Positions 34,442 to 55,555 of a stretch of DNA of 64,000 bases are shown here, piece after piece. The notes beneath the pieces are model-generated. The model was not told the DNA's origin, did not search any database, and saw nothing but the letters and a program-made list of their open reading frames with translations. A program made the translations under genes and the position numbers. The DNA comes from a virus, in the IMG/VR virus record IMGVR_UViG_3300009130_001466, positions 48,802 through 112,801 of that record, one strand, 5' to 3'. Numbering within the stretch: position 1 is the first letter of the stretch; each line of letters starts with the position of its first letter.

Positions 34442-34469
34442 TTGACTTTTATTTTTGGGGCAATAGTAT
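34442..34469 (+). promoter_or_regulatory. Class I promoter
   Basis: TTGACT, 16 bases, TAGTAT, then eight bases to the ATG at 34478. Confidence 0.55.
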
Positions 34470-34477
34470 ACACACTC

Positions 34478-35017
34478 ATGGTAGAAGTTGAAGTTACAAA
34501 ATTCATGCTTGATGAAGCAAATCAAAGAAATAAAAAATTCTATGAAATGTTCGGACATACAGGCACTCACAGATCAAACAAACACAGACAAAGAATAACT
34601 GGTTATCTAGCCGAAGCAGCAATTAGCAACGCTTATGCAGATATAGTTTATGCGGAAGGTCATTCTGTTGATTTTGTTTTAAAAAACTCAGACACAATAG
34701 ATTCCAAAGCTCAAGGGTGCAATGGCAAACCAATGTCTAATTATAGTGCCACCTTATATGAAGAGCAAAAAAATAGAGCCACCGATTACTATATTTTCAG
34801 TAGAGTCAAGAACGATTTTAGCGTTGTTTGGATATGCGGCATTATATCCAAAAAAAAGTTTTTCAAAATAGCTGACTTAAAGAAAGCTGGAACCAAAACC
34901 AATAATTTCACTTATGATCAAAGTAGATATGAAATCGAATATAATCAATTAGCAGATATTGACACTTTTTTGAACTGGCACAAAAAAACAAACGCTCCGA
35001 TAGTTAAAGGGATATAA
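34478..35017 (+). CDS. PD-(D/E)XK-type nuclease inside the tRNA cluster
   Basis: 179 residues. The ATG at 34478 is chosen from the promoter geometry; a longer reading would run through tRNA-Trp. Core motif: E46 in GYLAEAAI, D65 in SVDFVL, D75-S-K77 in IDSKAQG, then a YEEQKNRATDYYIF region like restriction-type PD-(D/E)XK folds. The last 24 bases overlap the 5' end of tRNA-Arg, and the stop codon lies within the tRNA. A DNA endonuclease, perhaps selfish or acting against competing phages, is inferred. Confidence 0.6.
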   Translation: MVEVEVTKFMLDEANQRNKKFYEMFGHTGTHRSNKHRQRITGYLAEAAISNAYADIVYAEGHSVDFVLKNSDTIDSKAQGCNGKPMSNYSATLYEEQKNRATDYYIFSRVKNDFSVVWICGIISKKKFFKIADLKKAGTKTNNFTYDQSRYEIEYNQLADIDTFLNWHKKTNAPIVKGI

Positions 35018-35068
35018 CCGCTGATTTCTAATCTGCTATTCCAGGTTCGAATCCTGGTCGGAGTACCA
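34994..35068 (+). tRNA. tRNA-Arg (TCT)
   Basis: Acceptor GCTCCGA/TCGGAGT, anticodon loop TTTCTAA, one mismatch in the anticodon stem, T arm CCAGG/CCTGG, CCA encoded. Its 5' end overlaps the nuclease CDS. Confidence 0.85.
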
Positions 35069-35070
35069 AT

Positions 35071-35151
35071 TTTAAAAAAGAACTGCAAAACTGTATTTTG
35101 TTATGCGCTAATTGCCATAAGGAAGAACATGAAAGGCTTAGGCAAAAATAG
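35071..35151 (+). pseudogene. C-terminal remnant of an HNH endonuclease
   Basis: Starting two bases after tRNA-Arg, an open frame without start encodes CILLCANCHKEEHERLRQK then stop, the ending of HNH proteins (CxxCH...H). The rest of the gene is missing. A decayed mobile endonuclease or a deletion scar at the tRNA is inferred. Confidence 0.65.
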
Positions 35152-35329
35152 GTCTCGTATTTTTTTGGTTTTTTCTATATGTGGTTCATAGCAGGTGCGC
35201 CGATTCTACCACAAAGGTAGGGGGGTACTTGCGCGAACGTTTCGCCGTTGTTTCAAATCGTGAAAATGTGTTTGGAGATTGAGGAAACTCTCCCCCCCGC
35301 TTGTTCTGTGTTTCTCTGGACACGTTTTT

Positions 35330-35383: not shown

Positions 35384-35411
35384 TTGACAACCGCAATGGA
35401 TTCCACATACT
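35384..35411 (+). promoter_or_regulatory. Class I promoter
   Basis: TTGACA, 16 bases, CATACT, seven bases to the ATG at 35419. Confidence 0.65.
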
Positions 35412-35418: not shown

Positions 35419-35598
35419 ATGATAAGCAATAAAGAAATCGACAACGTCATTGACCACCTCACGCAAGCGAGCTACAACACTCAGCGCAAGCTGTACCCTG
35501 AGATCAAAGCTAGTCGTTGGGGCAAAGTTTACGGCGAGGGCGTAGCAAAAAAACTTGAAAGTAATTTTCAAAAACACTTGACAATCGCACAAAAATAA
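35419..35598 (+). CDS. Small cassette protein, paralogue of 37123-37305
   Basis: 59 residues. VIDHLT-x-(A/S)SY, RKL-PEI-(A/P)SRWGK(V/I)YGE and a TxA(Q/K)K end are shared with the gene at 37123. Its 3' end contains the TTGACA of the next gene's promoter. Function unknown; leaderless start predicted. Confidence 0.65.
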   Translation: MISNKEIDNVIDHLTQASYNTQRKLYPEIKASRWGKVYGEGVAKKLESNFQKHLTIAQK

Positions 35599-35605
35599 CC
35601 ATACT
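35578..35605 (+). promoter_or_regulatory. Class I promoter overlapping a coding 3' end
   Basis: TTGACA (inside the previous gene), 16 bases, CATACT, seven bases to the ATG at 35613. Confidence 0.65.
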
Positions 35606-35612
35606 ATAAATC

Positions 35613-35798
35613 ATGAGTAAAATTGAATCAATAATTGAAGCTGAGTGCTACGATTGGAAGCCTTCCGATATTGAATGGTCTCTGCGAAAAGAAGATGTAC
35701 CAGAAATTGCAAGAAACATTAAGAAGCTTCTCATTGAAGAGATTAAAAACTACGCAGAACATATTGACGATGCGGTTCGATTTATAGACGATTTTTAG
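35613..35798 (+). CDS. Small acidic cassette protein
   Basis: 61 residues, helical (IEAECYDWKPSDIEWSL, then VPEIARNIKKLLIEEIK). No family recognised. Leaderless start predicted. Confidence 0.6.
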   Translation: MSKIESIIEAECYDWKPSDIEWSLRKEDVPEIARNIKKLLIEEIKNYAEHIDDAVRFIDDF

Positions 35799-36024: not shown

Positions 36025-36052
36025 TTGACATCACCCCTTGAATCCCTATTGT
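36025..36052 (+). promoter_or_regulatory. Class I promoter
   Basis: TTGACA, 16 bases, TATTGT, six bases to the ATG at 36059. Confidence 0.6.
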
Positions 36053-36058
36053 ATACAT

Positions 36059-36268
36059 ATGATAACAAATAAAACATACACAGTCACCACAGTCGAATTC
36101 TCTAACACAGGCGAGATGCGCGAGCAAGTGCGCGACTTCCCTAAGTCTCGTGAGGGTCTCGCCGAAGCTTACGCTTTCGCTAATCCTTGCGACGAGTGGG
36201 CGATCTGGTTCGGCGACGAGCTGGTAGACGACAGCTGCTGCACCCCTGCTCACCTAGTGGTAGCGTAA
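36059..36268 (+). CDS. Small cassette protein
   Basis: 69 residues from the ATG at 36059, placed by the promoter. Beta strand start (YTVTTVEFSNTGE) then acidic helices, ending DDSCCTPAHLVVA. Unknown. Confidence 0.55.
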   Translation: MITNKTYTVTTVEFSNTGEMREQVRDFPKSREGLAEAYAFANPCDEWAIWFGDELVDDSCCTPAHLVVA

Positions 36269-36277
36269 CACCGAAGC

Positions 36278-36357
36278 CCCTAAGTCGCTGACAGTCAACG
36301 ACTTACGGGGCCGAGGCCGCCCCGCGCGCGTAAGTGCTTGATACTCAACGACTTACG
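36278..36357 (+). repeat. Composite palindrome R1
   Basis: Hairpin TAAGT-loop-ACTTA, then about 22 bases of pure G/C, then hairpin CGTAAGT-loop-ACTTACG. The left stem is extended by GCCCC/GGGGC. Confidence 0.85.
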
Positions 36358-36402
36358 ACACGAAAAAAACTTTAAAAAACTTAAAAAAACTTTGCGATAA
36401 GC

Positions 36403-36430
36403 TTGACTTGCCACTTCTTTAACCTATACT
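36403..36430 (+). promoter_or_regulatory. Class I promoter
   Basis: TTGACT, 16 bases, TATACT, six bases to the ATG at 36437, preceded by A/T-rich tracts that could act as an UP element. Confidence 0.7.
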
Positions 36431-36436
36431 GTAAGC

Positions 36437-36616
36437 ATGATTAAATATAACGAATTGCACGACCTCTCTTGCCAATACTGGGATGCTCTTGACCGCCAAG
36501 ATTATGACTGGGCTGACTTCATCGACTCATGCCTTGAGCGTGAAGGCGTGGAGCGTCTTCCTCGCGAAGATTGCGAAGAGCCCATCCTTGACCTTTCTCC
36601 TCTCGAAGTAAACTAA
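36437..36616 (+). CDS. Small acidic cassette protein
   Basis: 59 residues, very acidic (DLSCQYWDALDRQDYDWADF). Unknown. Followed five bases later by the next gene, so likely a two-gene unit. Confidence 0.6.
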   Translation: MIKYNELHDLSCQYWDALDRQDYDWADFIDSCLEREGVERLPREDCEEPILDLSPLEVN

Positions 36617-36620
36617 CCAA

Positions 36621-36956
36621 ATGACGATTATGACAAAAGCAATACTAGTAGACCCTTTTCTCCCCGCGATCTCAACTGTTGAGGTTGACGGGTTCGAAGA
36701 TATCCAACGCATGATCGATTGCCGCTGCTTTACTTGTGTGAGGTTTCCCGATGGCAAGCATGTCGCATACATTGACGACGAAGGATTAATCAATGGTACG
36801 CAAAGAGGCGTTAGGTTTATCGACAAGATTTACCCCGATGCCTTAGCTGGTCGCGTTCTTATCCTTGCCGACGACGGGCAAGGTGGCGACGCTGACTGCG
36901 AGCTGACAGGCGCTGATATCCAAGCGATGATAAAAGGAATCGTGGAATTCGGATAA
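36621..36956 (+). CDS. DUF3846-like protein
   Basis: 111 residues. The AYIDDEGLING core and the late VLILADDGQGGDAD segment resemble the DUF3846 family found in phages and plasmids; function unknown. Second gene of the unit starting at 36437. Another ATG three codons downstream is possible. Confidence 0.45.
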   Translation: MTIMTKAILVDPFLPAISTVEVDGFEDIQRMIDCRCFTCVRFPDGKHVAYIDDEGLINGTQRGVRFIDKIYPDALAGRVLILADDGQGGDADCELTGADIQAMIKGIVEFG

Positions 36957-36970
36957 AAAAGCTTGACACC

Positions 36971-37049
36971 CGTAAGTTGCTGATTATCAACGACTTACGG
37001 GCCCAGGGCCGCCCGCGCCGCGCAAGTGCTTGATAACCAAGGACTTGCG
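36971..37049 (+). repeat. Composite palindrome R2
   Basis: Left hairpin CCCGTAAGT/ACTTACGGG; G/C centre starting GGGCCC; right hairpin CGCAAGT/ACTTGCG, in which both stem arms changed together relative to other copies. Confidence 0.85.
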
Positions 37050-37086
37050 TAATCTAAAATAAAAAACAAAAAAGTTTCCAAAACGC

Positions 37087-37114
37087 TTGACAACCACACA
37101 AAATTTCCTATTCT
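37087..37114 (+). promoter_or_regulatory. Class I promoter
   Basis: TTGACA, 16 bases, TATTCT, eight bases to the ATG at 37123. Confidence 0.65.
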
Positions 37115-37122
37115 ATAAGATA

Positions 37123-37305
37123 ATGAAAGACACAAACAAATTAATCACCGAAGTAATCGACCACCTAACTTTTTCTAGCTATGCTCACAACCGCAAGCTA
37201 AATCCCGAAATCTCACCTTCTCGTTGGGGCAAGATCTACGGAGAAAAAGAAGTTGTTTTAATGGAAAAAACTTTCCAAAATACCTTGACAACCGCAAAAA
37301 AATAA
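37123..37305 (+). CDS. Small cassette protein, paralogue of 35419-35598
   Basis: 60 residues; shares VIDHLTxxSY and SRWGKIYGE with the 35419 gene. Its 3' end also carries the TTGACA of the following promoter, so the gene-plus-promoter unit was duplicated as a block. Confidence 0.65.
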   Translation: MKDTNKLITEVIDHLTFSSYAHNRKLNPEISPSRWGKIYGEKEVVLMEKTFQNTLTTAKK

Positions 37306-37312
37306 TCATACT
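37285..37312 (+). promoter_or_regulatory. Class I promoter overlapping a coding 3' end
   Basis: TTGACA, 16 bases, CATACT, seven bases to the ATG at 37320. Confidence 0.65.
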
Positions 37313-37319
37313 GTATAAC

Positions 37320-37478
37320 ATGAACATTAGAAAAGAAATTAAAGTCTCATCAATTCTAACCGACGAAGTATTGCGTCAACAAAAAGAGTTAATCTCTAAA
37401 GGCTTTCAGCACGTCAATAACATTAAAAATGGTCGTCTTTCGGATGGTTACACAATGATTTTTGTTAAACAAGGGTAA
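37320..37478 (+). CDS. Small cassette protein
   Basis: 52 residues (VSSILTDEVLRQQKELISKG ... YTMIFVKQG), basic/helical. Unknown. First of three closely spaced genes. Confidence 0.6.
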   Translation: MNIRKEIKVSSILTDEVLRQQKELISKGFQHVNNIKNGRLSDGYTMIFVKQG

Positions 37479-37482
37479 TAAT

Positions 37483-37632
37483 ATGAAAATTTGGGAACTT
37501 TTAACTCTGGTGCTTTTTGGACTCATTCTTGGGTTGGCAATGTTTGTCGGGCTTAAGCTCGACGACAAAGCTCAACAAACGAAAGAAGCGACATGGGAAC
37601 GCTTCGAGGAAATCGACAACGCAATCAAATAA
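37483..37632 (+). CDS. Small membrane protein
   Basis: 49 residues with one N-terminal transmembrane helix (LLTLVLFGLILGLAMFVGL) and a charged tail. Four bases after the previous gene. Confidence 0.5.
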   Translation: MKIWELLTLVLFGLILGLAMFVGLKLDDKAQQTKEATWERFEEIDNAIK

Positions 37633-37633
37633 A

Positions 37634-37771
37634 ATGAAAATAACTATTGACAAAACAACTGCAATTTGCTTGACAGTCGCGGCTTGCACTTACTTCATCG
37701 CAAATAAAATTAGCTGGTTTCAAAAAATGTTTGACACTGTCTCAGGGGTTGCGATAAACTCAATCATGTAA
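37634..37771 (+). CDS. Small membrane protein
   Basis: 45 residues, one hydrophobic segment (AICLTVAACTYFIAN). The stop codon is built into the left arm of palindrome R3. Confidence 0.45.
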   Translation: MKITIDKTTAICLTVAACTYFIANKISWFQKMFDTVSGVAINSIM

Positions 37772-37845
37772 GTGCTTGAATATCAACGACTTACGGGGCC
37801 AGGGCCGCCCGCGCCGCGCAAACCCTTGATAAACAACGACTTACG
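37768..37845 (+). repeat. Composite palindrome R3
   Basis: Two TAAGT/ACTTA-type hairpins around a G/C centre; the right copy has diverged on its 5' arm (CGCAAAC). Confidence 0.8.
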
Positions 37846-37869
37846 CAACTAAAAAAAAGAAAAAGACTC

Positions 37870-37897
37870 TTGACAACCGCACAAAAATAACCATCAT
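37870..37897 (+). promoter_or_regulatory. Class I promoter
   Basis: TTGACA, 16 bases, CATCAT, seven bases to the ATG at 37905. Confidence 0.6.
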
Positions 37898-37904
37898 ACA
37901 AACT

Positions 37905-38237
37905 ATGAAACCACTAAGCAAAACACTGACAGAACTAGGGATTGCATTTAGCTTTCCTATTGAGATTAAAGACGCTAATGGCAAGCCGACTTACCGAGAG
38001 TACAGCGATGGCTACTGGTATAAGTTTGAGTATGATGACAATAATAAAATAACTTACTGCAAGAATAGTCATAACTACTCGTATAGGTGTCAGTATGATG
38101 ACAATGGCAACAGGAATTACTTCGAGGACAGCAATGGTCTCCGAGAAGGTGCGCCACGTCCAGCCAAATCAACTAATACCTGCGAAGGCAAGGTTGTCGA
38201 AGTGGACGGGATCAAATATAAATTAACAGCACTATGA
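37905..38237 (+). CDS. YD-repeat-like small protein
   Basis: 110 residues with aromatic-acidic repeats YSDGYWYKFEYDDNN, YSYRCQYDDNGN and FEDSNG, similar in style to RHS/YD repeats in some phage and bacterial small proteins. C-terminal EVDGIKYKLTAL strand. Function unknown. It overlaps the next start by four bases. Confidence 0.5.
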   Translation: MKPLSKTLTELGIAFSFPIEIKDANGKPTYREYSDGYWYKFEYDDNNKITYCKNSHNYSYRCQYDDNGNRNYFEDSNGLREGAPRPAKSTNTCEGKVVEVDGIKYKLTAL

Positions 38238-38665
38238 AAAAATTAATCTTACTAACATTCGCCATCTGCGCATCAATAGCACAAGGCGCGACATTAACTG
38301 ATTTAATTGTTGCTTTAGAAAAAGTGGAAAGCAATTGCAATCCTTCCGCTTATAACGAAAGCGAAAAAGCGTTAGGCTCTCTTCAGATTAGACCTATCAT
38401 GTTGGCTGATTATAATCGCATCTATGGCACGAATATAAAGCACAAGCAAATGTCAAACCGCTTGACTTCCCATAATATCGCAATCGGAATCTTTCGTCAC
38501 TATGAAAAGTATATCAAACGTAATGGCGAAAAGTTAAATGCAAAACATCTTGCCTTCGTTTGGAATGGAGGAGGATCAGCTTGGAAACGGGTTGCAAATC
38601 CGAAAAGCGACAAAAAGCAAAAAAATCTAGAAATTTACTGGACAAAGGTCTCAAAGCATCTGTAA
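38234..38665 (+). CDS. Exported SLT-type lytic transglycosylase-like protein
   Basis: 143 residues. Signal peptide at 1-18 (MKKLILLTFAICASIAQG). ALEKVESNCNPSAYN with candidate catalytic Glu32, then ALGSLQI and LAFVWNGG match the lysozyme-like SLT fold. Probably cleaves peptidoglycan in the periplasm, aiding lysis or cell modification during infection. Coupled to the upstream gene by an ATGA overlap. Confidence 0.65.
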   Translation: MKKLILLTFAICASIAQGATLTDLIVALEKVESNCNPSAYNESEKALGSLQIRPIMLADYNRIYGTNIKHKQMSNRLTSHNIAIGIFRHYEKYIKRNGEKLNAKHLAFVWNGGGSAWKRVANPKSDKKQKNLEIYWTKVSKHL

Positions 38666-38689
38666 GTTACTGGTATTCAACGACTTACG
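38661..38689 (+). repeat. Single hairpin R4 of the composite family
   Basis: One TGTAAGT-loop-ACTTACG hairpin whose left arm contains the stop codon of the transglycosylase-like gene; no G/C centre. Confidence 0.75.
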
Positions 38690-38723
38690 CAACAAAAAAA
38701 CTTTAATCTTTTTTCAAAATCGC

Positions 38724-38751
38724 TTGACAGCCTAACCTTTTTTCTTATTCT
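38724..38751 (+). promoter_or_regulatory. Class I promoter with short leader
   Basis: TTGACA, 16 bases, TATTCT; the ATG at 38778 is 26 bases further, so this one is not leaderless. Confidence 0.55.
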
Positions 38752-38777
38752 TTTTTAAGCATTAACAACATCACTTT

Positions 38778-38972
38778 ATGATTGATAAACGAACAGAAAA
38801 ACAAATCAAGAGGCTCTTCTCGGTGGTAGTAGACGACTCACTCATGGACGCTGACTTTGAATATGTCCAAGCAGCTATTGCTTGCGTTCGTAAAGAGTGT
38901 GATCAAGTTGAAGAATACATGAAGGAGATGGATAGACTTGCTGATGAAGATTCTATATCTAACACAATATGA
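38778..38972 (+). CDS. Small acidic cassette protein
   Basis: 64 residues, helical (TEKQIKRLFSVVVDDSLM). Unknown. The stop overlaps the next ATG (ATGA). Confidence 0.55.
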   Translation: MIDKRTEKQIKRLFSVVVDDSLMDADFEYVQAAIACVRKECDQVEEYMKEMDRLADEDSISNTI

Positions 38973-39061
38973 GACAATTCACCAACGGCGACACGGGCGA
39001 GGTCAAGACTATAGCTGAGGTCTTTGCCCTAATCCGCGAAGAGAGAGAAGGAGAGCCGTAA
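38969..39061 (+). CDS. Very small protein
   Basis: 30 residues (MRQFTNGDTGEVKTIAEVFA...), overlapping the upstream stop. Its stop codon lies in the left hairpin of R5, as for other cassettes, which supports it being real. Confidence 0.4.
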   Translation: MRQFTNGDTGEVKTIAEVFALIREEREGEP

Positions 39062-39135
39062 GTCTCTGACAGTCAACGACTTACGGGCCCAGGGCCGCGC
39101 CCGCCGCGCAAGTGCTTGATATACAACGACTTACG
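39058..39135 (+). repeat. Composite palindrome R5
   Basis: Left hairpin CCGTAAGT/ACTTACGG, G/C centre, right hairpin CGCAAGT/ACTTACG (one mismatch). Confidence 0.8.
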
Positions 39136-39169
39136 CAACAAAAAAACTTTAATCTTTTTTCAAAATCGC

Positions 39170-39197
39170 TTGACAACCTCACCAAAATTCTTATTGT
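39170..39197 (+). promoter_or_regulatory. Class I promoter
   Basis: TTGACA, 16 bases, TATTGT, seven bases to the ATG at 39205. Confidence 0.65.
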
Positions 39198-39204
39198 TTT
39201 AATT

Positions 39205-39387
39205 ATGACTACTACTGATTCCTTCTCTGATTCTTCTTTTGACCCTTGGGCTGACTTGTCCGAGGCCGAGTTCGCTGAGTTCGAAGCCGATATGTTGCGC
39301 GAGCAACAGGAGCGTGAAAGCGCCGAGGCGATGGCTCACGAAGCTCAGCTTGAGCGCGAGCTTATGGAAAGAGCCGACTTCCGCTAA
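39205..39387 (+). CDS. Very acidic small protein
   Basis: 60 residues. The ATG at 39205 is placed by the promoter, rejecting a longer start inside palindrome R5. Glu/Asp/Ala-rich (WADLSEAEFAEFEADML). It could be a DNA mimic or a protein-binding inhibitor, but nothing specific is visible. Confidence 0.6.
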   Translation: MTTTDSFSDSSFDPWADLSEAEFAEFEADMLREQQERESAEAMAHEAQLERELMERADFR

Positions 39388-39393
39388 GGGGTT

Positions 39394-39472
39394 GCGCAAG
39401 CCCTTGACAGTCAACGACTTACGGGGCCGAGGCCGCCCCGCGCGCGTAAGTCCTTGATACTCAGCAACTTAC
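39394..39472 (+). repeat. Composite palindrome R6
   Basis: Two hairpins around GGGGCCGAGGCCGCCCC-type centre, seven bases after the preceding stop. Confidence 0.8.
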
Positions 39473-39476
39473 AGAG

Positions 39477-39500
39477 GTTCCCGAAATTCATTTCGGGAAC
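39477..39500 (+). terminator. Perfect hairpin, possible terminator
   Basis: GTTCCCGAAA/TTTCGGGAAC with a 4-base loop, directly after R6. No T tract, so termination is uncertain. Confidence 0.5.
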
Positions 39501-39601
39501 ATACATAACTGCTTGATCATTAGATATATACGCTATTTGTCTTGTATTTGCGTTCGATTTGCGTTCGATTTGATTTGGCGCTATTTTTTTTCAAAAAAGG
39601 G

Positions 39602-39629
39602 TTGACTAATGCCCAAAACAATACATAAT
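39602..39629 (+). promoter_or_regulatory. Class I promoter of the structured RNA
   Basis: TTGACT, 16 bases, CATAAT. No ATG follows; predicted start near 39636. Confidence 0.6.
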
Positions 39630-39635
39630 GTAAAA

Positions 39636-40060
39636 CATAATCGTTCTTTAACATTTTACAATTTAGACAAGCGAGTCCTAGAAGCTGGTAGATGAAATTG
39701 CTTTAGTAGGCTACCAAGGTTAAGCAAATCGTTTGTCTCTTATCTAACTCGAAGAAAGCCAGGTAAACAGCCGAGCATGGGGATCTGCTGGCAATGCGTC
39801 GAGGACAGCGTGGGGGTGCGTTGATAAGATTGATTAGTTAAACACCCTCAAGATTTAACCTCGCTTGGATGACGTCTGCCTTAGAAGGGCATCCCCAAGC
39901 CAACTGGATTCGCAAATAGCGAAGAGGGAGTTGCCACTGCTCTGAGGTTTTAACATTTTAAGCGGAGAATTTGAACGCTCGACCTAAACGCCTAAAGGGT
40001 TCACCCAAGCGGAAATGAGTCGAAAGACCGAGAGCGCCAACCAATTGAAACAGGTTATAT
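39636..40060 (+). ncRNA. Large structured non-coding RNA candidate
   Basis: About 425 bases with a strong promoter and no ORF. Helices: AGACAAGCGA/TCGTTTGTCT (39665-39674 with 39729-39738) enclosing an H-type pseudoknot formed by GGTAG/CTACC (39687, 39711) interleaved with TTGCTT/AAGCAA (39698, 39722); CTTATC/GATAAG (39739, 39823); GGGGAT/ATCCCC (39779, 39891); TTCGC/GCGAA (39909-39923). It is not tmRNA (no CCA-ended tRNA-like domain) and has no RNase P signature. Identity unknown. The end is not marked by a clear terminator. Confidence 0.55.
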
Positions 40061-40082
40061 CCGCACCAATCTAAAAAAACTA

Positions 40083-40111
40083 TTGACAAAGCTCAACTTT
40101 TGTGATTTAAT
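40083..40111 (+). promoter_or_regulatory. Class I-like promoter with leader
   Basis: TTGACA, 17 bases, TTTAAT (TATAAT also overlaps at longer spacing). The gene has a leader of about 35 bases. Confidence 0.45.
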
Positions 40112-40153
40112 ATAATCTTAACAATCGAAAATCCAAAACGGAGAAAAGAAAAC

Positions 40154-40405
40154 ATGAAAAACCTAAAACTAAATCCAATCCAAAAAACTCGCCTTGCTAT
40201 TCGTCGCGCTTTCGCTAAGAATAATATGGCTCAAATCACCTACAAGAAAAAGTCTGATGAGACTGTTGGCTCTTATGTCATTGACATGAATTTCATTGAA
40301 GACTTGGGCGATATGTTCAACACCTATTCTTACGCCACTGGCGCGAAGCACAGCGGCATCCGCTCCTTCTATAAAAACCGAATCGAAAAAATTAAACTTG
40401 TGTAG
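40154..40405 (+). CDS. Small basic protein with true ribosome binding site
   Basis: 83 residues, basic (RLAIRRAFAKNN; YKNRIEKIKL) with a QITYKKKSDETVGSYVIDM strand pair resembling WYL/SH3-like ligand modules. Unlike neighbours it has an ordinary leader and GGAGAA site. Followed by two terminators. Unknown function. Confidence 0.6.
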   Translation: MKNLKLNPIQKTRLAIRRAFAKNNMAQITYKKKSDETVGSYVIDMNFIEDLGDMFNTYSYATGAKHSGIRSFYKNRIEKIKLV

Positions 40406-40428
40406 CGTGATTGGTTAACGTGTGTGTG

Positions 40429-40468
40429 CCGCCTCGTCTTGTGGTTAGGGCGAGGCGGCTTAAATTTC
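40429..40468 (+). terminator. Intrinsic terminator, first of twin pair
   Basis: GCCGCCTCG/CGAGGCGGC stem-loop with T-rich tail, preceded by AACGTGTGTGTGCCG. Confidence 0.75.
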
Positions 40469-40498
40469 TTTTGTTGTAGTCGTGTGCAACGTGTGTGT

Positions 40499-40536
40499 GC
40501 CGTCTTACCTTTTGTGTATGGGGTAAGGCGGCTTTT
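40499..40536 (+). terminator. Intrinsic terminator, second of twin pair
   Basis: GCCGTCTTACC/GGTAAGGCGGC stem-loop followed by TTTT, preceded by the same AACGTGTGTGTGCCG as the first. Confidence 0.75.
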
Positions 40537-40567
40537 CGCTATATGGATCAAGAGTTCTGTAAGTCCT

Positions 40568-40646
40568 TGATGGTCAACGATTTACGCGGCGGGGGCCAGC
40601 GCAGACCCGCAAGTGCTTGATAATCAACAACTTACGAATTCAAATA
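40568..40646 (+). repeat. Composite palindrome R7
   Basis: Two TAAGT-type hairpins around a G/C centre (GGCGGGGGCCAGCGC), following the twin terminators. Confidence 0.8.
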
Positions 40647-40671
40647 AATTTAAATAAATTTTTAAAAAGGG

Positions 40672-40700
40672 TTGACTCGTCGAATTAAATAATACATTAT
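40672..40700 (+). promoter_or_regulatory. Class I promoter
   Basis: TTGACT, 17 bases, CATTAT, six bases to the ATG at 40707. Confidence 0.6.
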
Positions 40701-40706
40701 ACTAAT

Positions 40707-40997
40707 ATGAAAATGACAAAAACAACTACAGAAAACCTCACCCTTGAAAACTCATTCGGAACAATCCGCGAAGAAAATGGAGTCCAGATGAATATATCCG
40801 TGCATGTCCAGCCAAACAAAAATTATGGTTCGTTTGAAATGTATGACGAAGAAACTGGAGGTGAAGAATGGTATGCCGAAGGAGGTCTTTGGTTTGAGGG
40901 CAAGGAACTGGTTGACTACGATGGAGTTTTTGCTCTATCTCCGTCAATTATTCAAATCTTAGAAGACAAAGGTTATGATGCTTCTTATGCAAAGTAA
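40707..40997 (+). CDS. Cassette protein
   Basis: 96 residues, acidic, beta-rich (MNISVHVQPNKNYGSFEMYDE; GGLWFEGKELVDYDG). Unknown family. Leaderless start predicted. Confidence 0.6.
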   Translation: MKMTKTTTENLTLENSFGTIREENGVQMNISVHVQPNKNYGSFEMYDEETGGEEWYAEGGLWFEGKELVDYDGVFALSPSIIQILEDKGYDASYAK

Positions 40998-41000
40998 TAC

Positions 41001-41029
41001 TTGACTAATCACAAAAAATAATACATCAT
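41001..41029 (+). promoter_or_regulatory. Class I promoter
   Basis: TTGACT beginning just after the previous stop, 17 bases, CATCAT, six bases to the ATG at 41036. Confidence 0.6.
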
Positions 41030-41035
41030 ATCAAC

Positions 41036-41377
41036 ATGAAGAAAATAACCTTATCACTACACCGCAGCGAAGATGAACCTTTTGTTCAGAAATGGGAGGT
41101 CGCTCGCAAATGTGTTTTTGCTGTTCGGCTGAACGTAGAGCATATCGAATATCCACATATTCCGTCAAAGCTTGCTGAGCTTTTGTTTCACGTTACTAAC
41201 GCGCCGACCGAGCTTATCACTAAAACACACGAAAAAATTCTTTTGGCTCTGTGGGAAAACTGCTCGGACAAGAGAACCTTTCACTCTACAAGTGTCGGAG
41301 ATGTCGTTAAGATCTGTGATTGTAACGGACACCCAACAACTTTAATGTGCAAATCAGTTGGATGGGAGGAGCTATAA
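41036..41377 (+). CDS. Cassette protein
   Basis: 113 residues, Cys/His-containing helical protein (KWEVARKCVFAVRLNVEHI; CSDKRTFHSTSVGDVVKIC). Unknown. First of a three-gene unit; its end overlaps the next start. Confidence 0.6.
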   Translation: MKKITLSLHRSEDEPFVQKWEVARKCVFAVRLNVEHIEYPHIPSKLAELLFHVTNAPTELITKTHEKILLALWENCSDKRTFHSTSVGDVVKICDCNGHPTTLMCKSVGWEEL

Positions 41378-41556
41378 TGACAATCGATCAAATAAATTCA
41401 TACTGCTACGAACATTACGAAGACGGCGGCGATATTGTAGTAGAGTGCATGGAAGATGAAGAGAAGCTCAAACGTTTTGAAACTTTGGAAGACCTCAGAC
41501 AATACATTGAGATACGCCAAGAGCATCGCCGAGAAATTGAATCAACCATTTGGTAA
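41377..41556 (+). CDS. Small acidic protein
   Basis: 59 residues from the ATG at 41377, which overlaps the previous stop and follows GGGAGGAG. Acidic helices (EDGGDIVVECMEDEEKLKRF). Unknown. Confidence 0.6.
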   Translation: MTIDQINSYCYEHYEDGGDIVVECMEDEEKLKRFETLEDLRQYIEIRQEHRREIESTIW

Positions 41557-41557
41557 T

Positions 41558-41975: not shown

Positions 41976-42051
41976 CAACTTTGACTGCTCTGGGGCTCAA
42001 GTTCCGTGCCAACTTTTTTTCTAATTATTTTTTTATTTTTTTGGTAAACGC

Positions 42052-42080: not shown

Positions 42081-42123
42081 GTAATCTCACAATTAAATAA
42101 TAATACTATATAAAGTTAATACT

Positions 42124-43145: not shown

Positions 43146-43174
43146 TTGACTTGCGCGACAAATTCTCAGATAAT
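43146..43174 (+). promoter_or_regulatory. Class I promoter
   Basis: TTGACT, 17 bases, GATAAT, six bases to the ATG at 43181. Confidence 0.65.
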
Positions 43175-43180
43175 GCTTTT

Positions 43181-43888
43181 ATGACTAAACTACTAAACAA
43201 CGGAAACTCGAAAACAATCAAAGGCGAAAAACTTGGATGGACTACTTTTGGTCTACACCTTGCGCCTTTTAACTTGGCTGGCAAAAATGTTTGCGCCCAT
43301 GCTTCGGCTGGATGCGCTGCTGCTTGTCTCAACACTGCTGGACGCGGCGCGATGTCGAATGTGCAAAAATCTCGCATTGCAAAAACACAAAAATTCTTTG
43401 CCGATAAAAATGCTTTCGTATGGCAACTTGCTAAAGAGATTAGCAACGCTGTTAAACTTTCCGCAAAAAAAGACATGAAGCCATGCTTTCGTCTCAATCT
43501 TACAAGCGATCTGCCTTGGGAAAACATAAAAGTTGAATCGCACGGAAAAAAGCTTTCGCTTATGGAGATGTATCCCGATGTGCAGTTTTACGATTATACC
43601 AAGTCTTTTCCGCGTATGCAAAAATATCTAAAAGGTGAAATGCCAAGCAACTATCATCTTACCTTTTCGCGTAGTGAATGTAATGACAACTTAGTTGACT
43701 TGGTTCTCAAGCTTGGCGGAAATGTCGCGGCAGTCTTTCGCAATGAGTTTCCTAAGTCTTGGAAGTCTGTGGAAGTTGTCAACGGTGACGAAACAGACTT
43801 GCGTTTTTTAGATGCGCAAAATAAAATTGTTGGACTTGTGCAAAAAGGACTTGCCAAGAAGGACGAAACAGGCTTTGTTATAGGCTAG
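43181..43888 (+). CDS. GP88-family-like protein
   Basis: 235 residues from the ATG at 43181 (leaderless geometry). Begins LLNNGNSKT and continues FNLAGKNVCAHASAGCAAACL, then LNLTSDLPWENI, VQFYDYTKS, matching the phage gene-product-88 family, which carries a conserved Cys cluster and an N-terminal NGNSK. Function unknown. Followed by small overlapping genes. Confidence 0.6.
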   Translation: MTKLLNNGNSKTIKGEKLGWTTFGLHLAPFNLAGKNVCAHASAGCAAACLNTAGRGAMSNVQKSRIAKTQKFFADKNAFVWQLAKEISNAVKLSAKKDMKPCFRLNLTSDLPWENIKVESHGKKLSLMEMYPDVQFYDYTKSFPRMQKYLKGEMPSNYHLTFSRSECNDNLVDLVLKLGGNVAAVFRNEFPKSWKSVEVVNGDETDLRFLDAQNKIVGLVQKGLAKKDETGFVIG

Positions 43889-44590: not shown

Positions 44591-44618
44591 TTGACAGAAC
44601 CATTTTTTTCGTTAGACT
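44591..44618 (+). promoter_or_regulatory. Class I promoter
   Basis: TTGACA, 16 bases, TAGACT, six bases to the ATG at 44625. Confidence 0.65.
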
Positions 44619-44624
44619 GTAGTC

Positions 44625-44819
44625 ATGATAATCAAAAAAGATGACCTCCTCCGCCCCACTCGCAACCACGCTCGCACCGTCAAGGTAATGTTTACCTACT
44701 CTTGTGGGAAACTCGCCATGATCTACTGCCCTACTGTTGGGCGTGGCGATGTCAGGCACATCGACCTCTACGAAGGTTGGGCTATCGAGCGTGACGGGAA
44801 TCACGTCGGGACTGTGTAA
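44625..44819 (+). CDS. Small cassette protein
   Basis: 64 residues, beta-rich (ARTVKVMFTYSCGKLAMIYC). Unknown; its stop is inside palindrome R11. Last gene of the plus-strand array. Confidence 0.6.
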   Translation: MIIKKDDLLRPTRNHARTVKVMFTYSCGKLAMIYCPTVGRGDVRHIDLYEGWAIERDGNHVGTV

Positions 44820-45092: not shown

Positions 45093-46025
45093 CTACATAT
45101 CTTTTAATATGTTTACACCTTTGCCGCTTATCTCACGCTGACCATTGATCTTCATTAGACCACGCTTGAGAAGATAGAGTTCTGCTTCTTTCTGGATTGC
45201 TGTGCGACTCATACCTGTAACGGCTGAGAGCATCTGAAGTGAGCAGTTGCCACGCTCCTTGAGGATGCTGAGAATCTCAAGCTCAATGTTGGACAACCCA
45301 AGAGGCTTGATACCCAAGGTGTGAGACATCTTCTCCCAATCCTTTTTGGAATAGTCCTTGTTATTCACAGACTCGCAGTAGAGCATGATCTCTTTGGAAC
45401 GCTTGACTGCTGAACGAGCGTTGCCCCTTGTAGTCTCAGCAATCTCTGTGAGAATCCCATCCTCAAACTCAATCTCGCCACAAACCAAATCAATAATTTC
45501 AGATAGCTCGTCAACTGTATAAGGCTTGAAGTCTACGATAGTGAGGCGATCCTTGAAGGGAGCAAACAACTTATCCATCTCAGTAGTAGCGAAGATGAAA
45601 TTTTGTTGGGCAAAATCAAAAGCAAAAATCTGTTCGCCATGATGATACTCTTTGAAGTTGCTCTTCTCTGTGTTGAATACAGTAAGGAAGGCGTTAACCA
45701 AATCCTTGGGAAGCATGTGCGCCTCGTCCAATAGGATGGTAATCTCGTTGTGCATCACAATGGGCAAGAAGATTTGCTCAAAGAAAGCATTAGCATTTTT
45801 AATAGTGGAGCAGTTGATCTCAAGGAATGGACGTTGACTGCCATCCTTGTTCTTGAGATTGGAAGCATACTCCTTAGCGAACTCAGTCTTACCCAAGCCC
45901 TTTGCCCCACTCAACATAAGAAATGGTGCGACTCCAGTAGAATTTTGTGCTTTAGCGTAAAAGGAAAGCTGACGCTTTACCTCGTCTTGACCGATTAGGT
46001 TTTTGAACATAGTTTTAGTAATCAT
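45093..46025 (-). CDS. RuvB-like AAA+ ATPase
   Basis: 310 residues. IGQDEVKRQL start, Walker A SGAKGLGKTE (39-48), Walker B ITILLDEAH (95-103), sensor-1 FIFATTE, arginine-containing GNARSAVKRS sensor-2 region, and C-terminal winged helix (GLSNIELEILSILKERG; TAIQKEAELYLLKRGLM). This is the layout of RuvB, the Holliday junction branch-migration motor; RuvA and RuvC were not seen. A clamp-loader-like role is an alternative. Class I promoter nine bases upstream. Confidence 0.75.
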   Translation of the reverse strand: MITKTMFKNLIGQDEVKRQLSFYAKAQNSTGVAPFLMLSGAKGLGKTEFAKEYASNLKNKDGSQRPFLEINCSTIKNANAFFEQIFLPIVMHNEITILLDEAHMLPKDLVNAFLTVFNTEKSNFKEYHHGEQIFAFDFAQQNFIFATTEMDKLFAPFKDRLTIVDFKPYTVDELSEIIDLVCGEIEFEDGILTEIAETTRGNARSAVKRSKEIMLYCESVNNKDYSKKDWEKMSHTLGIKPLGLSNIELEILSILKERGNCSLQMLSAVTGMSRTAIQKEAELYLLKRGLMKINGQREISGKGVNILKDM

Positions 46026-46034
46026 AGGACTTTC

Positions 46035-46062
46035 AGTATGTGGATTTTTGTGGTTGTGTCAA
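46035..46062 (-). promoter_or_regulatory. Class I promoter (minus)
   Basis: TTGACA, 16 bases, CATACT, nine bases to the ATG at 46025. Confidence 0.6.
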
Positions 46063-46113: not shown

Positions 46114-46368
46114 TTACTTATGTAGAGTGAATGAGATTTTTTGTTCGGCTTCTGGCTCTGGGGCTACTGTTGATACAGGAGCAGGTACAGTGTCCTCAAT
46201 TGATGCACCCATACGCTCAAGCCACACACGACTTACTGGAATACCTGTTGCTGAACCGCAAAACTTTTCTAGTTCGGTTAAGGTGATGTTGACGAAGGAA
46301 GTTGCACCCTTCTTGCGACCACTACCTGTCTTACGAGGAGTGCCATCTTTGTTTAATGTTTTTTTCAT
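46114..46368 (-). CDS. Small basic protein, possible DNA binding
   Basis: 84 residues. KDGTPRKTGSGRKKGATSF is AT-hook-like, followed by a helical NITLTELEKFC segment and a Pro-rich acidic tail. Unknown. Own class I promoter ten bases upstream. Confidence 0.5.
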   Translation of the reverse strand: MKKTLNKDGTPRKTGSGRKKGATSFVNITLTELEKFCGSATGIPVSRVWLERMGASIEDTVPAPVSTVAPEPEAEQKISFTLHK

Positions 46369-46378
46369 GATGTAAACC

Positions 46379-46406
46379 AGTATGTCTTAATATTCCAATA
46401 TGTCAA
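46379..46406 (-). promoter_or_regulatory. Class I promoter (minus)
   Basis: TTGACA, 16 bases, CATACT, ten bases to the ATG at 46368. Confidence 0.6.
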
Positions 46407-47178: not shown

Positions 47179-47367
47179 TTACTTTGCCTCCTTGCTAAAA
47201 TCATATTTTATGCCATTAATGAGGTCGTCCATCAAGAAAGATGAGACAATGGCACAGGCATCTGCCTCTCCGTAGTCGCGATCTTTGGCATAGTCTGCCG
47301 CATGTTCATTTAACTCTTGTGCCATATTTTTTAAATATTTAATTAATTCCCTTTTCTTGATTTTCAT
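47179..47367 (-). CDS. Small protein, leaderless start
   Basis: 62 residues from the ATG at 47367, exactly six bases after a strong class I promoter; a longer start upstream is rejected. Helical, charged. Unknown. Confidence 0.6.
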   Translation of the reverse strand: MKIKKRELIKYLKNMAQELNEHAADYAKDRDYGEADACAIVSSFLMDDLINGIKYDFSKEAK

Positions 47368-47373
47368 AGTAGT

Positions 47374-47402
47374 AGTATATTTGAAGTTGGCGCAAATGTC
47401 AA
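47374..47402 (-). promoter_or_regulatory. Class I promoter (minus)
   Basis: TTGACA, 17 bases, TATACT, six bases to the ATG at 47367. Confidence 0.7.
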
Positions 47403-49131: not shown

Positions 49132-49677
49132 TTAAATTGTTGTGGCGATGATTTTTTCTACTGAGTAGTCATACCAATGAGGTTTGTTTGCTTTCCAGTT
49201 TGCTAGGTGAGCCTTGTCAATCTTGTAATACAGTCTATATTGTAAGACAGGGTGCAGATCGCCAAAATTCTTTATCTTGCGACATTCTGAATCTTCTGAT
49301 ATGGCGATGGCAAAATCTTCTTGCTTTCCATCTGGGATATAATCAATCAAAGAAAATAGTTTGGTAATAACGCCTTCGCAAAAATGAGTTTTGTTGTAGC
49401 GTTCTGTATATTCTTTAGCTAAGGATAAACCATGATGACATAACCACTCGAAATTTCCTTTGGTATTACCTGCCCAAATTGAGCTAGGATGATGATGATA
49501 CCCACCCTTGACTGGTGTGCCTTTCTTAGATAGGGGTAAAAGGTGAGTTGGAGTCTTGTGTCGAATCACAGCACAGGATAGACATTGCATGATCTCTGTA
49601 ACCATTTTGACACAATGTTTGTCGTTGTGCCACTTTGCGGCTACTTCGTGATCTGTTGATAAAGCAAAAATGTTCAT
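49132..49677 (-). CDS. Phage protein distantly like pyrimidine-dimer glycosylases
   Basis: 181 residues. Pattern MNIFALSTDHEVAAKWHNDK, HHPSSIWAG, WLCHHGLSLAKEYTERY, and a late KPHWYDY recall a phage family sometimes annotated as pyrimidine dimer DNA glycosylase-like; T4 denV ends in a similar PxWYKYY motif. Catalysis is not established. A class I-like promoter (TTGACA...TATACT, short spacing) lies upstream. Confidence 0.5.
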   Translation of the reverse strand: MNIFALSTDHEVAAKWHNDKHCVKMVTEIMQCLSCAVIRHKTPTHLLPLSKKGTPVKGGYHHHPSSIWAGNTKGNFEWLCHHGLSLAKEYTERYNKTHFCEGVITKLFSLIDYIPDGKQEDFAIAISEDSECRKIKNFGDLHPVLQYRLYYKIDKAHLANWKANKPHWYDYSVEKIIATTI

Positions 49678-49825
49678 AATGTTACAGTATATATGTTAGT
49701 TTGTTTGTCAATAAAAAAGTATCGAGCTTTTATGTAGTTACTCGAAAGGTGATGAAAGTGACCACAGAAGTAATCAAAACTGCGCTACAATACCCCACAA
49801 TGCAAATAGAGTTTTTTTAAATTTT

Positions 49826-50245: not shown

Positions 50246-50521
50246 TTATAAGCTTTCCTTTGGATAAACGATTGTCCAGTTTCCGTTGCCATCAAGACCA
50301 ACGACATTAAAATCAGCAAATTCAATTGCTTCATCTACATCCATGCCATGAGGCTCTTTAGTAAACACTTCAACAATAGCATCGTAATCGTACACCAAAT
50401 ATCCTTTGGTATCAACACCGATAATAGCATCGTTGAGTCCGTCTAGTTTTAAACAATCTTCTGCGATGATGTTTTGCAGTTCGATTGGTAGTTCATCATT
50501 TGTTTTGTTTTCTGTATCCAT
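50246..50521 (-). CDS. Small acidic protein
   Basis: 91 residues, Asp/Glu-rich; VDTKGYLVYDYDAIVEVF and VDEAIEFADFNVVG. Unknown. Three bases upstream of the next gene. Confidence 0.5.
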   Translation of the reverse strand: MDTENKTNDELPIELQNIIAEDCLKLDGLNDAIIGVDTKGYLVYDYDAIVEVFTKEPHGMDVDEAIEFADFNVVGLDGNGNWTIVYPKESL

Positions 50522-50579
50522 GCCGCAATTATAAGGTATAAATCAAATAACGTCAACACAAAAGAGGAATTAATGATGT

Positions 50580-52568: not shown

Positions 52569-53324
52569 TTACTTGGCACTATTGTCAAGGGTAGAAGCCC
52601 AATACCAACAGTTTGGTTGATTCTTTTTTCTGTTCCAGTATATTGCCCTCGAAATTGCAGGTGATACGTTGTACATATTAGACATATCTATCCAGTGTTG
52701 CTCGATCTCGCGATACTTATCGCTATGCTTTGATTGGTCGTAACCATAAGCTTGAAATAAATGTGTATCAGCGCAAAACACTTGAACATCAAAGGTATAA
52801 ATCATTTCCAAAGCGAAGGACACCTTTGCCATACCTAGTCCGAGAATCTCTTTTACTAGACCATCACGGAAGCTCGCCCAAGACTGATCTTTTTTAAATT
52901 TAAATAAATTTGGATTCTGCCAAAATTTTGTGGCGAACTGACTGATAAATTTAGTGCGGTTGTTATACATACCAACTCCACTTTCGATCAGCTTCTCCTT
53001 TAGCACATCGCAACGATTAAACCATTCGGTAAAGTCTTTGATGGCAAGGTAGCCTCGCATATTCGATTCATAAGAAGTGTGGACTGAACAAAAAGCAAAG
53101 AGCCACTTTTGGAACACTTCCATATCGTTTGTGCATTTTAGTTTTTCCCATACCACGCCATGCTCGATAATTTCATCTTCTGTTATTGACTCAAAGAAAC
53201 GCTCAACGTCTCGCTTGTCGCACTTTTGAACATGGACGCGGTTGCGATCATCCAAGAAGGAAAGTTGTTGTGCCTCTTGTTTTTTAATGTGAGGAAGGAA
53301 GTCTAGTTGGGTTTCTGTTATCAT
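52569..53324 (-). CDS. HhH-GPD-like DNA glycosylase candidate
   Basis: 251 residues from the ATG at 53324, placed by a class I promoter seven bases upstream. LVKEILGLGMAKVSFALEMI, then FDVQVFCADTHLFQAYG, follows the helix-hairpin-helix plus catalytic Asp pattern of HhH-GPD base-excision enzymes (G-x-G-x-AK ... D-T-H). Might remove modified or damaged bases. It lies between rIIA and rIIB genes. Confidence 0.55.
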   Translation of the reverse strand: MITETQLDFLPHIKKQEAQQLSFLDDRNRVHVQKCDKRDVERFFESITEDEIIEHGVVWEKLKCTNDMEVFQKWLFAFCSVHTSYESNMRGYLAIKDFTEWFNRCDVLKEKLIESGVGMYNNRTKFISQFATKFWQNPNLFKFKKDQSWASFRDGLVKEILGLGMAKVSFALEMIYTFDVQVFCADTHLFQAYGYDQSKHSDKYREIEQHWIDMSNMYNVSPAISRAIYWNRKKNQPNCWYWASTLDNSAK

Positions 53325-53331
53325 ATTGCTT

Positions 53332-53359
53332 ACTATAGTGATTTTTGTAGTTATGTCAA
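53332..53359 (-). promoter_or_regulatory. Class I promoter (minus)
   Basis: TTGACA, 16 bases, TATAGT, seven bases to the ATG at 53324. Confidence 0.65.
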
Positions 53360-53426
53360 TGCTTTTTTTGAAAAAATGCCTATCCGTGAAGAAACCACTC
53401 TCCACGGATAGGACTTTCTATGATAA

Positions 53427-55520
53427 CTACCAGTTTTTGACGTAATTGATAACGTCAGATAGATCTTGATCTCCTCGACGCAAGCTTGTGCAGTTGGCAA
53501 GGCGTTTGATTAAAGGATATTTTTCGTTAAACTCTTTCACGGCTTCCTGCTCTTTTGTAATCTTTGGCTTAACTAAATCTAGGTCAGCTAGAACTCTTAA
53601 TTCTCCTTGAGCAGTATGTATATTGCTTCTTTTCCCAAAAACCTTTTTTAAATTTTTAATAATTTGATTAGAGGGCAATTCTTCAGAGGCTTTATCAACA
53701 AGATTAGAAACCGCTTTCCAATCATGCCCAAATTCATTATAAAGGTCGCGGTCTATCGCATTAAAATCAATCTTGTTTTGAATTGAGTTAGATTTTTTAA
53801 TCCAATCAGCATAAACATTTTCAAGTGGAATCCAGTTGGCTTTCTTTTCTACCTTCTTTAAAGCAGAAGAACGAATACCATATACTTCTTTAAAGTCGGG
53901 ATTGATGTCTTTTAATTCACTAATAAATCCCCTAGCTTTAGAAGGGCAATCTGATTCTAAAAACGCACTACCATCAATTTTTTGGAATTTGTTTGCGTAA
54001 TACCGAACGTAATAATACGTTTCGTTATCTGAAAAATCTTCGTTTTTAGCTTCCCAGAAATCGGCTTGCGAGTAATGATACGCATTGCCAAAAGAACCAA
54101 ATAACATCACATCACTACCTGCAAGTGGAGAACCAGATGACTTTTTTTGTGTTGTTTTCTTTGTTATCGTTCGCTCACATTCAGAGAGAAGTTTGACTTT
54201 GGTAGACTTCATCATTTTAAAACGATTGAGTGCATTATTTTTAGCCTCATCTGTTTCTGCGACAAGAACAACAGCCTCTTCGTTGTCAGCTAAGAAAGAC
54301 AAACGATTTGCGAGTGATCGAGGTGATACACCATCATCAATAATAAAAAATTTATCTTTTTTCGGGTAAAACATATCAGAATAAGAATAGCGGGGATTTC
54401 TAAATCCCAATTTACCATTACGATTATAAGAAACATTTGTTACTTTATAATTTTTCTTAAACAATGCAGAACTAACGAATTCGCCGCCAAATTTATTTTC
54501 GTCAAAATCCGCAGATACAGCTTTCTTAGAAAAATGTCTAGCATAAGTAGATATGACTGATAAATGTATTTTGGACGCTTCGTACAGACAATCGCAAGAA
54601 TCAAATTTTAATTTTAGTTGCGCTTTTAGAGCATTTGCGATTTTATCGGAAGCTTCTTTTAGCTTTTCAACAGTTTGATTGTTGTACTCTAAGGATTCAC
54701 GACTATGGTGCAATTTAAACTCACCAATTTCTGCTTTATATACTACCCCACGTACAAAGTTTTCGGGAGCATGATCGGTAACAGGGTACATTATGCCACC
54801 CATCAGAACGTAAGCTTTGTTACACTCTTCATTTTGAGACGAACGCCTCCAGTAATCCGTGTTTTCGTCAGTGAAATAATCAAAGGTGTCACAAGATATT
54901 TCCGCTTCGATATACTCAAAGGAGTCATTTTTAATGTTTAGATTGCCTTGTAGGTATCGAGAGAAATTTTTAAATTTTTTATTAAAATCTTCAATGTGTT
55001 GGTTTTCAATAGGCACTTGTATATAAATACCATTAGGTTCTTCAGAATTTTTCTCAGAGCAAAGGCGGCTTACAACTGTATCATCGTTTTCATCAACACG
55101 GATTGAATAAGATGTTTTAAAACCTTCGTTTACAGATATAACAATAAAAGAATCTGTGTACGATAAAGGAGCAAAACGTCCAATGCCAAAACCTCCAATT
55201 GAGTTGTTGCTACCACGTTTGGTTGATTTGCCATACTTGGTGTATAGACCCATCATATCTTCTTCGCTCAGACCTGTGCCGTAATCACGCACAATAAAGT
55301 TTGGCTCAATTTTTGTAGGTAATTGAATATCTATCTTCTTACCATTACTAACGTCAATAGCATTTGCGACGATCTCACGCATTGTTGCGAGAATAGTGTC
55401 GGAATAATTGTTGCGAAGCAGACTCGCGATATAACGCATATCTTCTGCATCAATAGAGCAAGATGCTGATTTAAGATTTGCGGATTGAGTGATGTTTTTG
55501 GTTTGGTTTGTAATTATCAT
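53427..55520 (-). CDS. rIIA: rIIA-like GHKL ATPase
   Basis: 697 residues (T4 rIIA 725). N-terminal GHKL ATPase: MREIVANAIDVSNG (N box), VRDYGTGLSEEDM (G1), GGFGIGRFAPLSYTD (G2). The long C-terminal part is mixed alpha/beta. In T4 it acts with rIIB at the membrane/nucleoid. Two ATGs are close together; the class I promoter spacing favours the second (55520). Confidence 0.85.
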   Translation of the reverse strand: MIITNQTKNITQSANLKSASCSIDAEDMRYIASLLRNNYSDTILATMREIVANAIDVSNGKKIDIQLPTKIEPNFIVRDYGTGLSEEDMMGLYTKYGKSTKRGSNNSIGGFGIGRFAPLSYTDSFIVISVNEGFKTSYSIRVDENDDTVVSRLCSEKNSEEPNGIYIQVPIENQHIEDFNKKFKNFSRYLQGNLNIKNDSFEYIEAEISCDTFDYFTDENTDYWRRSSQNEECNKAYVLMGGIMYPVTDHAPENFVRGVVYKAEIGEFKLHHSRESLEYNNQTVEKLKEASDKIANALKAQLKLKFDSCDCLYEASKIHLSVISTYARHFSKKAVSADFDENKFGGEFVSSALFKKNYKVTNVSYNRNGKLGFRNPRYSYSDMFYPKKDKFFIIDDGVSPRSLANRLSFLADNEEAVVLVAETDEAKNNALNRFKMMKSTKVKLLSECERTITKKTTQKKSSGSPLAGSDVMLFGSFGNAYHYSQADFWEAKNEDFSDNETYYYVRYYANKFQKIDGSAFLESDCPSKARGFISELKDINPDFKEVYGIRSSALKKVEKKANWIPLENVYADWIKKSNSIQNKIDFNAIDRDLYNEFGHDWKAVSNLVDKASEELPSNQIIKNLKKVFGKRSNIHTAQGELRVLADLDLVKPKITKEQEAVKEFNEKYPLIKRLANCTSLRRGDQDLSDVINYVKNW

Positions 55521-55527
55521 GCTCATT

Positions 55528-55555
55528 AATATGGCATAATTTTATCAAAAGTCAA
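55528..55555 (-). promoter_or_regulatory. Class I promoter of rIIA (minus)
   Basis: TTGACT, 16 bases, CATATT, seven bases to the ATG at 55520. Confidence 0.65.

Follow-up and report, generated by a model that had tools for sequence, protein, structure and literature searches.

Promoter placement consistent with leaderless or near-leaderless expression in a phage genome

RNA polymerase normally starts transcription 7-8 bases past the -10 element, at a purine that follows a pyrimidine. T4-type late promoters have an extended -10 without a -35 and depend on the phage sigma factor gp55. We analyzed a 64,000-nucleotide (nt) stretch of the virus record IMGVR_UViG_3300009130_001466 in which promoters lie so close to the ATG that transcripts may begin at, or next to, the start codon. 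This stretch, the window, comprises bases 48802-112801 of the 112,801-base record, and counts given for the contig cover all 112.8 kb.

Leaderless mRNAs have been described elsewhere. Most middle and late mRNAs of the Thermus phage phiYS40 are, according to a review (PMC3594737), without a leader. Our phage would share such messages, and it differs in that a host-type, presumed early promoter class is also placed for leaderless transcription, in that its relatives are marine, and in that the design is read here from sequence. Zheng et al. 2011 (PMC3160421) identified a TA-like signal ~10 bp upstream of the start as a sign of leaderless bacterial genes. Here, too, only a few nt separate the end of a Pribnow box from the start codon; their survey was of cellular genomes, whereas our case is a phage in which a non-housekeeping motif forms a second class. 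In Akkermansia muciniphila, Cappable-seq placed 10% of transcription start sites (TSS) at the start codon (PMC4782308); this is a cell from a gut habitat with no established link to the phage. The original prediction had called heavy use of leaderless mRNA unusual, a view that the precedents reported for phiYS40 and Akkermansia weaken.

Class I promoters close to the start codon

A systematic scan of positions 34442-55555 revealed 20 sites before an ATG that consist of TTGAC, a spacer of 16-17 nt, and a -10. In 18 of them the -10 ends 6-8 nt from the ATG, in one at 9, and in one at 10, in agreement with the original prediction of about 15 such genes plus two at 9-10 nt. Its four example -10 elements were all recovered (35406-35411 CATACT, 36425-36430 TATACT, 47374-47379 TATACT, 53332-53337 TATAGT). 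Two further sites lie outside this region (58137, 8 nt; 61909, 9 nt), and there is an alternative -10 register at 49132. The sites have the make-up of sigma70 class I promoters (TTGACA-like -35, 16-18 bp spacer, TATAAT-like -10) and also show the combination used by Zheng et al., a TA-like box ~10 bp before the start codon with no Shine-Dalgarno (SD) sequence. Each line below gives the stretch from class I promoter to ATG, its strand, the -10, the distance to the ATG, and the support.

34442..34480, +, TAGTAT, 8 nt; same element in L018
35384..35421, +, CATACT, 7 nt; scan and relatives
35578..35615, +, CATACT, 7 nt; scan
36025..36061, +, TATTGT, 6 nt; scan and relatives
36403..36439, +, TATACT, 6 nt; scan and relatives
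37087..37125, +, TATTCT, 8 nt; scan and relatives
37285..37322, +, CATACT, 7 nt; scan
37870..37907, +, CATCAT, 7 nt; scan
39170..39207, +, TATTGT, 7 nt; scan and relatives
40672..40709, +, CATTAT, 6 nt; scan
41001..41038, +, CATCAT, 6 nt; 7 nt kept in orthologues whose spacers differ
43146..43183, +, Gp88-family gene, GATAAT, 6 nt; 6-9 nt kept in four orthologues whose spacers are unrelated
44591..44627, +, open reading frame (ORF) of 64 amino acids, TAGACT, 6 nt; scan
46023..46062, -, AAA ATPase (clamp-loader-like), CATACT, 9 nt; scan
46366..46406, -, CATACT, 10 nt; ATG at 7 nt in relatives
47365..47402, -, TATACT, 6 nt; scan
49675..49711, -, Pyr_excise domain, TACTGT, 6 nt; alternative register possible
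50519..50556, -, TATAAT, 6 nt; scan
53322..53359, -, TATAGT, 7 nt; scan and relatives
55518..55555, -, second ATG of the rIIA homologue, CATATT, 7 nt; scan and relatives
58098..58137, -, TAAGAT, 8 nt; scan
61869..61909, -, TAAAGT, 9 nt; scan

Across the contig, TTGAC, a 16-18 nt spacer, and a -10 ending 5-10 nt ahead of the ATG occur at 26 of the 146 called genes. After dinucleotide shuffling of these upstream regions, such placements averaged 0.46 and never exceeded 3, and a class I site at 11-60 nt was found for only 9 contig genes. Two of the 26 sites (L005 12822 and 16442), which lie within upstream coding sequence, may be chance hits. Promoter-like sites on unrelated viral contigs were followed by an ORF start at 5-10 nt in 26 cases, at 23-28 nt in 149, and at 29-34 nt in 87; the pattern used to select this set had a gap of 26 nt, which inflates the 23-28 bin and biases the exact peak, and the 5-10 bin is still small. 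The spacers of about five presumed early promoters are almost the same, CACAAAAATAACCATACT, and these promoters are therefore duplicates, not independent events. Such near copies are what one would expect if chance and inheritance were at work, with AT-rich sequence and duplicated promoter cassettes mimicking the rule. The controls refute this explanation, to which we assign a negligible probability: the shuffles do not reproduce the placement, the distance is kept in diverged orthologues, and an unrelated second motif obeys the same rule.

Retention was assessed in 54 distinct orthologue upstream regions that clearly differ from those of the window, with distances searched from 4 to 12 nt. 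The class I promoter was kept in 38, and every one lies 6-10 nt before the ATG (6 nt in 11, 7 nt in 22, 8 nt in 1, 9 nt in 3, and 10 nt in 1, so that 33 are at 6-7 nt). At the genes 41036 and 43181 the spacers can scarcely be aligned with those of relatives, while the -35, the -10, and the distance to the ATG persist. In relatives of rIIA (43-44% identity) the promoter sits 6-7 nt before the second ATG, and the true start of rIIA is therefore probably 55520 rather than 55526. The proposal that promoter distance can fix true starts was thus upheld for this gene.

The base before the ATG was examined in distinct class I sites pooled over related viruses, which are not fully independent. Position -1 is C or T in 20/21 sites at 6 nt and in 33/37 at 7 nt; together these give 53/58, whereas operon-internal genes have a pyrimidine there in 40/72 (Fisher p = 4.6e-6). 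Most sites at 8 nt have A at -1, which fits transcription starting one base upstream of the ATG. These data bear on the alternative that the promoters are real and produce short leaders of ~1-6 nt, with translation that is SD-less and short-leader, not strictly leaderless. The -1 base is often A at 8-10 nt, so the start may be 1-3 nt upstream there, and the base at which transcription starts can vary by one or two positions. Sites at 6-7 nt form the large majority, and in these the pyrimidine-A step coincides exactly with the ATG; we consider short leaders possible and rather unlikely as the general explanation.

As a separate observation, an inverted repeat, GTAAGTnnTTGATAnTCAACGACTTACG, recurs over window positions 36270-44550 (e.g. 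42975-43060), just upstream of class I promoters. Its copies are often paired around a GC-rich core, GGCCnnGGCCGCCCCGCG, and had no plasmid match.

The late-type motif AGTGTAA

Tail and structural genes, among others, are preceded by a second motif, AGTGTAA, which in nearly every case lies exactly 8 nt from the ATG. The original prediction had confined the design to early genes; the second class shows the same design. The window examples below are given from motif to ATG.

2208..2225, -, TGTGTAA before a large ORF, 8 nt
10834..10851, -, AGTGTAA before the tape measure protein, 8 nt
12900..12917, +, one side of a divergent pair, 8 nt
13954..13972, +, 9 nt
17163..17180, -, before a Rho_N-like protein, 8 nt
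29172..29191, -, 10 nt
30071..30088, -, 8 nt; homologues of 26-45% protein identity have the motif at 8 nt or a few more
32180..32197, -, 8 nt to ATG 32182 (probable true start of 31394-32302)
57302..57319, -, 8 nt to ATG 57304
57595..57612, -, 8 nt to ATG 57597

W32367 was set aside as an example, its motif being 12 nt from the ATG. For 17 of the 30 AGTGTAA copies on the contig, the distance to a following ATG is 8-10 nt, mostly exactly 8. In relatives, where the counts include partly orthologous copies, 64 motifs lie at 8 nt versus 0-4 for most of the other distances. Smaller peaks occur at 0, 9, 10, and 18 nt, the last due largely to one gene (21677-23629), and the arrangement extends to more distant relatives within three metagenome-assembled genomes (MAGs). 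Among 47 distinct cases with dissimilar upstream regions there is no -35 signal, the flank is A/T-rich, and T directly precedes the ATG in 41, so that both promoter classes show the canonical pyrimidine-purine step at the ATG. We conclude that AGTGTAA is probably a late promoter-like motif that defines a second promoter class. It resembles T4 late promoters in being an extended -10 motif without a -35 before presumed late genes. It differs from them in that AGTGTAA stands in place of the T4 consensus TATAAATA, and in that T4 late genes have leaders with an SD.

Could AGTGTAA, and perhaps the -10-like element too, act as a fixed-distance signal for translation and not as a promoter? A ribosome-binding motif would show a fixed 8-nt distance as well, and the late motif has no -35 and often lies in gaps of 8-30 nt between tandem genes. 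Against this, the class I sites include a -35, at 16-17 nt, that would be superfluous in a translation signal, and AGTGTAA lacks complementarity to the anti-SD core. Fusions of terminator-like hairpins to the motif and the divergent pair 12867/12900 require a promoter there, and the T at -1 fits a start site. We regard a translation signal as improbable.

The contig encodes a candidate reader of the motif. The product of L007 2587-3144 has a match among phage sigma factors (phrog_351, 1.9e-7), and its gene is the third of an operon whose first gene (L007 1734) has a class I promoter of the leaderless type. No match to the gp55 family was found, and the protein falls in another PHROG family. 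This sigma-like protein may read AGTGTAA.

Other motifs near start codons were also observed. Back-to-back start motifs occur at divergent gene pairs (L005 1805/1846 and window 12867/12900). TATAAT-like boxes without a clear -35 lie 5-7 nt before the ATG upstream of 21677-23629, 28148, and 17187, and one of these boxes follows AGTGTAA at 18 nt. The motif GCAAATAA stands shortly before the ATG of three adjacent genes (window 55780-56757), is kept in several relatives, and is possibly a third start-linked motif.

Leader length and Shine-Dalgarno sequences

The class I genes had been predicted to lack an SD, and an SD 4-mer was found in 0/26. For all promoter-led genes the count was 0/40 versus 16/72 for operon-internal genes, and 14% of within-gene ATGs have one by chance. 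An SD can occur where the promoter gap is longer, as at 40154 (42 nt, CGGAG) and at 12842 (24 nt from the late motif, AAGGA). Hairpins provide a further indication. At L005 15008 a hairpin with a T-run ends directly at the late motif, and at L007 5161 another runs into TATAAT, followed by 5 nt and the ATG. If these terminator-like hairpins terminate, a new transcript has to start within ~15 nt of the ATG. The kept distance, the -1 pyrimidine, and the abutting hairpins thus lend support to a start at or next to the ATG of genes without an SD.

Several findings weigh against this interpretation. The spacing of 6-10 nt is compatible with leaders of 1-4 nt, and the class I site is absent from 16 of the 54 orthologue upstream regions. 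The lack of an SD is partly forced, because the promoter and its -10 fill the SD window; the difference in SD energy was not significant (p = 0.09), only the 4-mer count differing. The pairing of leaders with SDs is imperfect: besides the two genes with an SD, the long-distance promoters of 42124, 51650, and L007 3235 have leaders without one. The first 45 nt of the presumed leaderless genes are no less structured than those of internal genes (p = 0.31). For the sigma-like protein, the match to Pfam region 2 is weak (score 0.029, under the cut-off), and the predicted structure, whose best PDB matches are sigma factors, is of moderate confidence (mean predicted local distance difference test score, pLDDT, 72.9). 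A phage initiator tRNA was considered as an aid to leaderless translation and rejected, since the two tRNA-Met(CAT) genes are by eye not initiator-like (paired 1:72, no GGG/CCC anticodon stem).

Leaderless or near-leaderless mRNAs are nevertheless the best explanation for most promoter-led genes, and we consider it likely with good confidence. Taken by class, such expression is very likely for class I genes and, with less assurance, likely for genes with the late motif. In the mechanism we propose, the host housekeeping holoenzyme would read the class I promoters (TTGAC/N16-17/-10) and set +1 at the A of the ATG. The -35-less AGTGTAA, probably read by the phage-encoded sigma-like protein, would set +1 at the same A for a second set that includes structural and tail genes. 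Promoter-led genes would thereby yield mRNAs with leaders of 0-3 nt, translated by the start-codon-first leaderless route, and operon-internal genes would use coupling or, in a minority, an SD.

Phage family and possible hosts

A nucleotide search against phage and plasmid records gave no DNA-level match to the window. Relatives of its terminase large subunit (TerL) are encoded on 142 IMG/VR stretches, and this marine phage family appears to be common in aquatic metagenomes. Window genes include those for the tape measure protein, TerL, homologues of rIIA and rIIB, and the clamp-loader-like ATPase; primase, helicase, DNA polymerase, and recombinase are encoded on the contig beyond the window. 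Rfam detected a further tRNA at 34362-34430 (36.7 bits) that is absent from the ARAGORN list, and a tRNA-Arg (34994-35068) overlaps the 3' end of ORF 34478-35017.

The phage may merely conform to a host that itself starts many genes leaderless, in which case its design is an adaptation rather than an oddity. Small Verrucomicrobiales genomes (2.1-2.7 Mb) hold up to 10 copies of TTGACA-N17-TANNAT-N6-ATG per genome, versus ~0 in a reversed control. They belong to the order of MAG G003, which contains a TerL relative, and include G004, G033, G041, G053, G076, G115, G118, and others; larger relatives are not rich in the pattern. These genomes suggest clade-specific leaderless class I promoters in cells, and A. 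muciniphila, with its leaderless TSS, is also scarce in SDs. The pattern is, however, absent from most Verrucomicrobiae genomes and from Flavobacteriales. TerL was rejected as a guide to the host, because its relatives lie in three conflicting MAGs (one of Flavobacteriaceae and one of Verrucomicrobiales among them); these relatives are probably binned phage contigs. In 387 Verrucomicrobiales genomes we found, besides the TerL contig itself, only matches of 29-48 nt, concentrated at query ~17040-17090 and 19820-19865, and no clear spacers. We place the chance that the phage conforms to its host slightly short of even.

If promoter position does mark the transcript start, gene starts could be corrected by a simple rule (rIIA 55520, 32182, 57304, and 57597). 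We more tentatively suggest, as a reading somewhat less probable than its contrary, that throughout this marine phage family nearly all promoter-led expression is leaderless, in two temporal classes that use different sigma factors and have their spacing tuned to the A of the AUG. If so, promoter position would fix the start of both transcription and translation in an apparently common aquatic phage family, and two unrelated promoter types would converge on leaderless messages. Infection would depend on start-codon-first initiation or shift the host towards it, and the family would be a non-thermophilic model in which to study when leaderless translation is favoured and for what reason.

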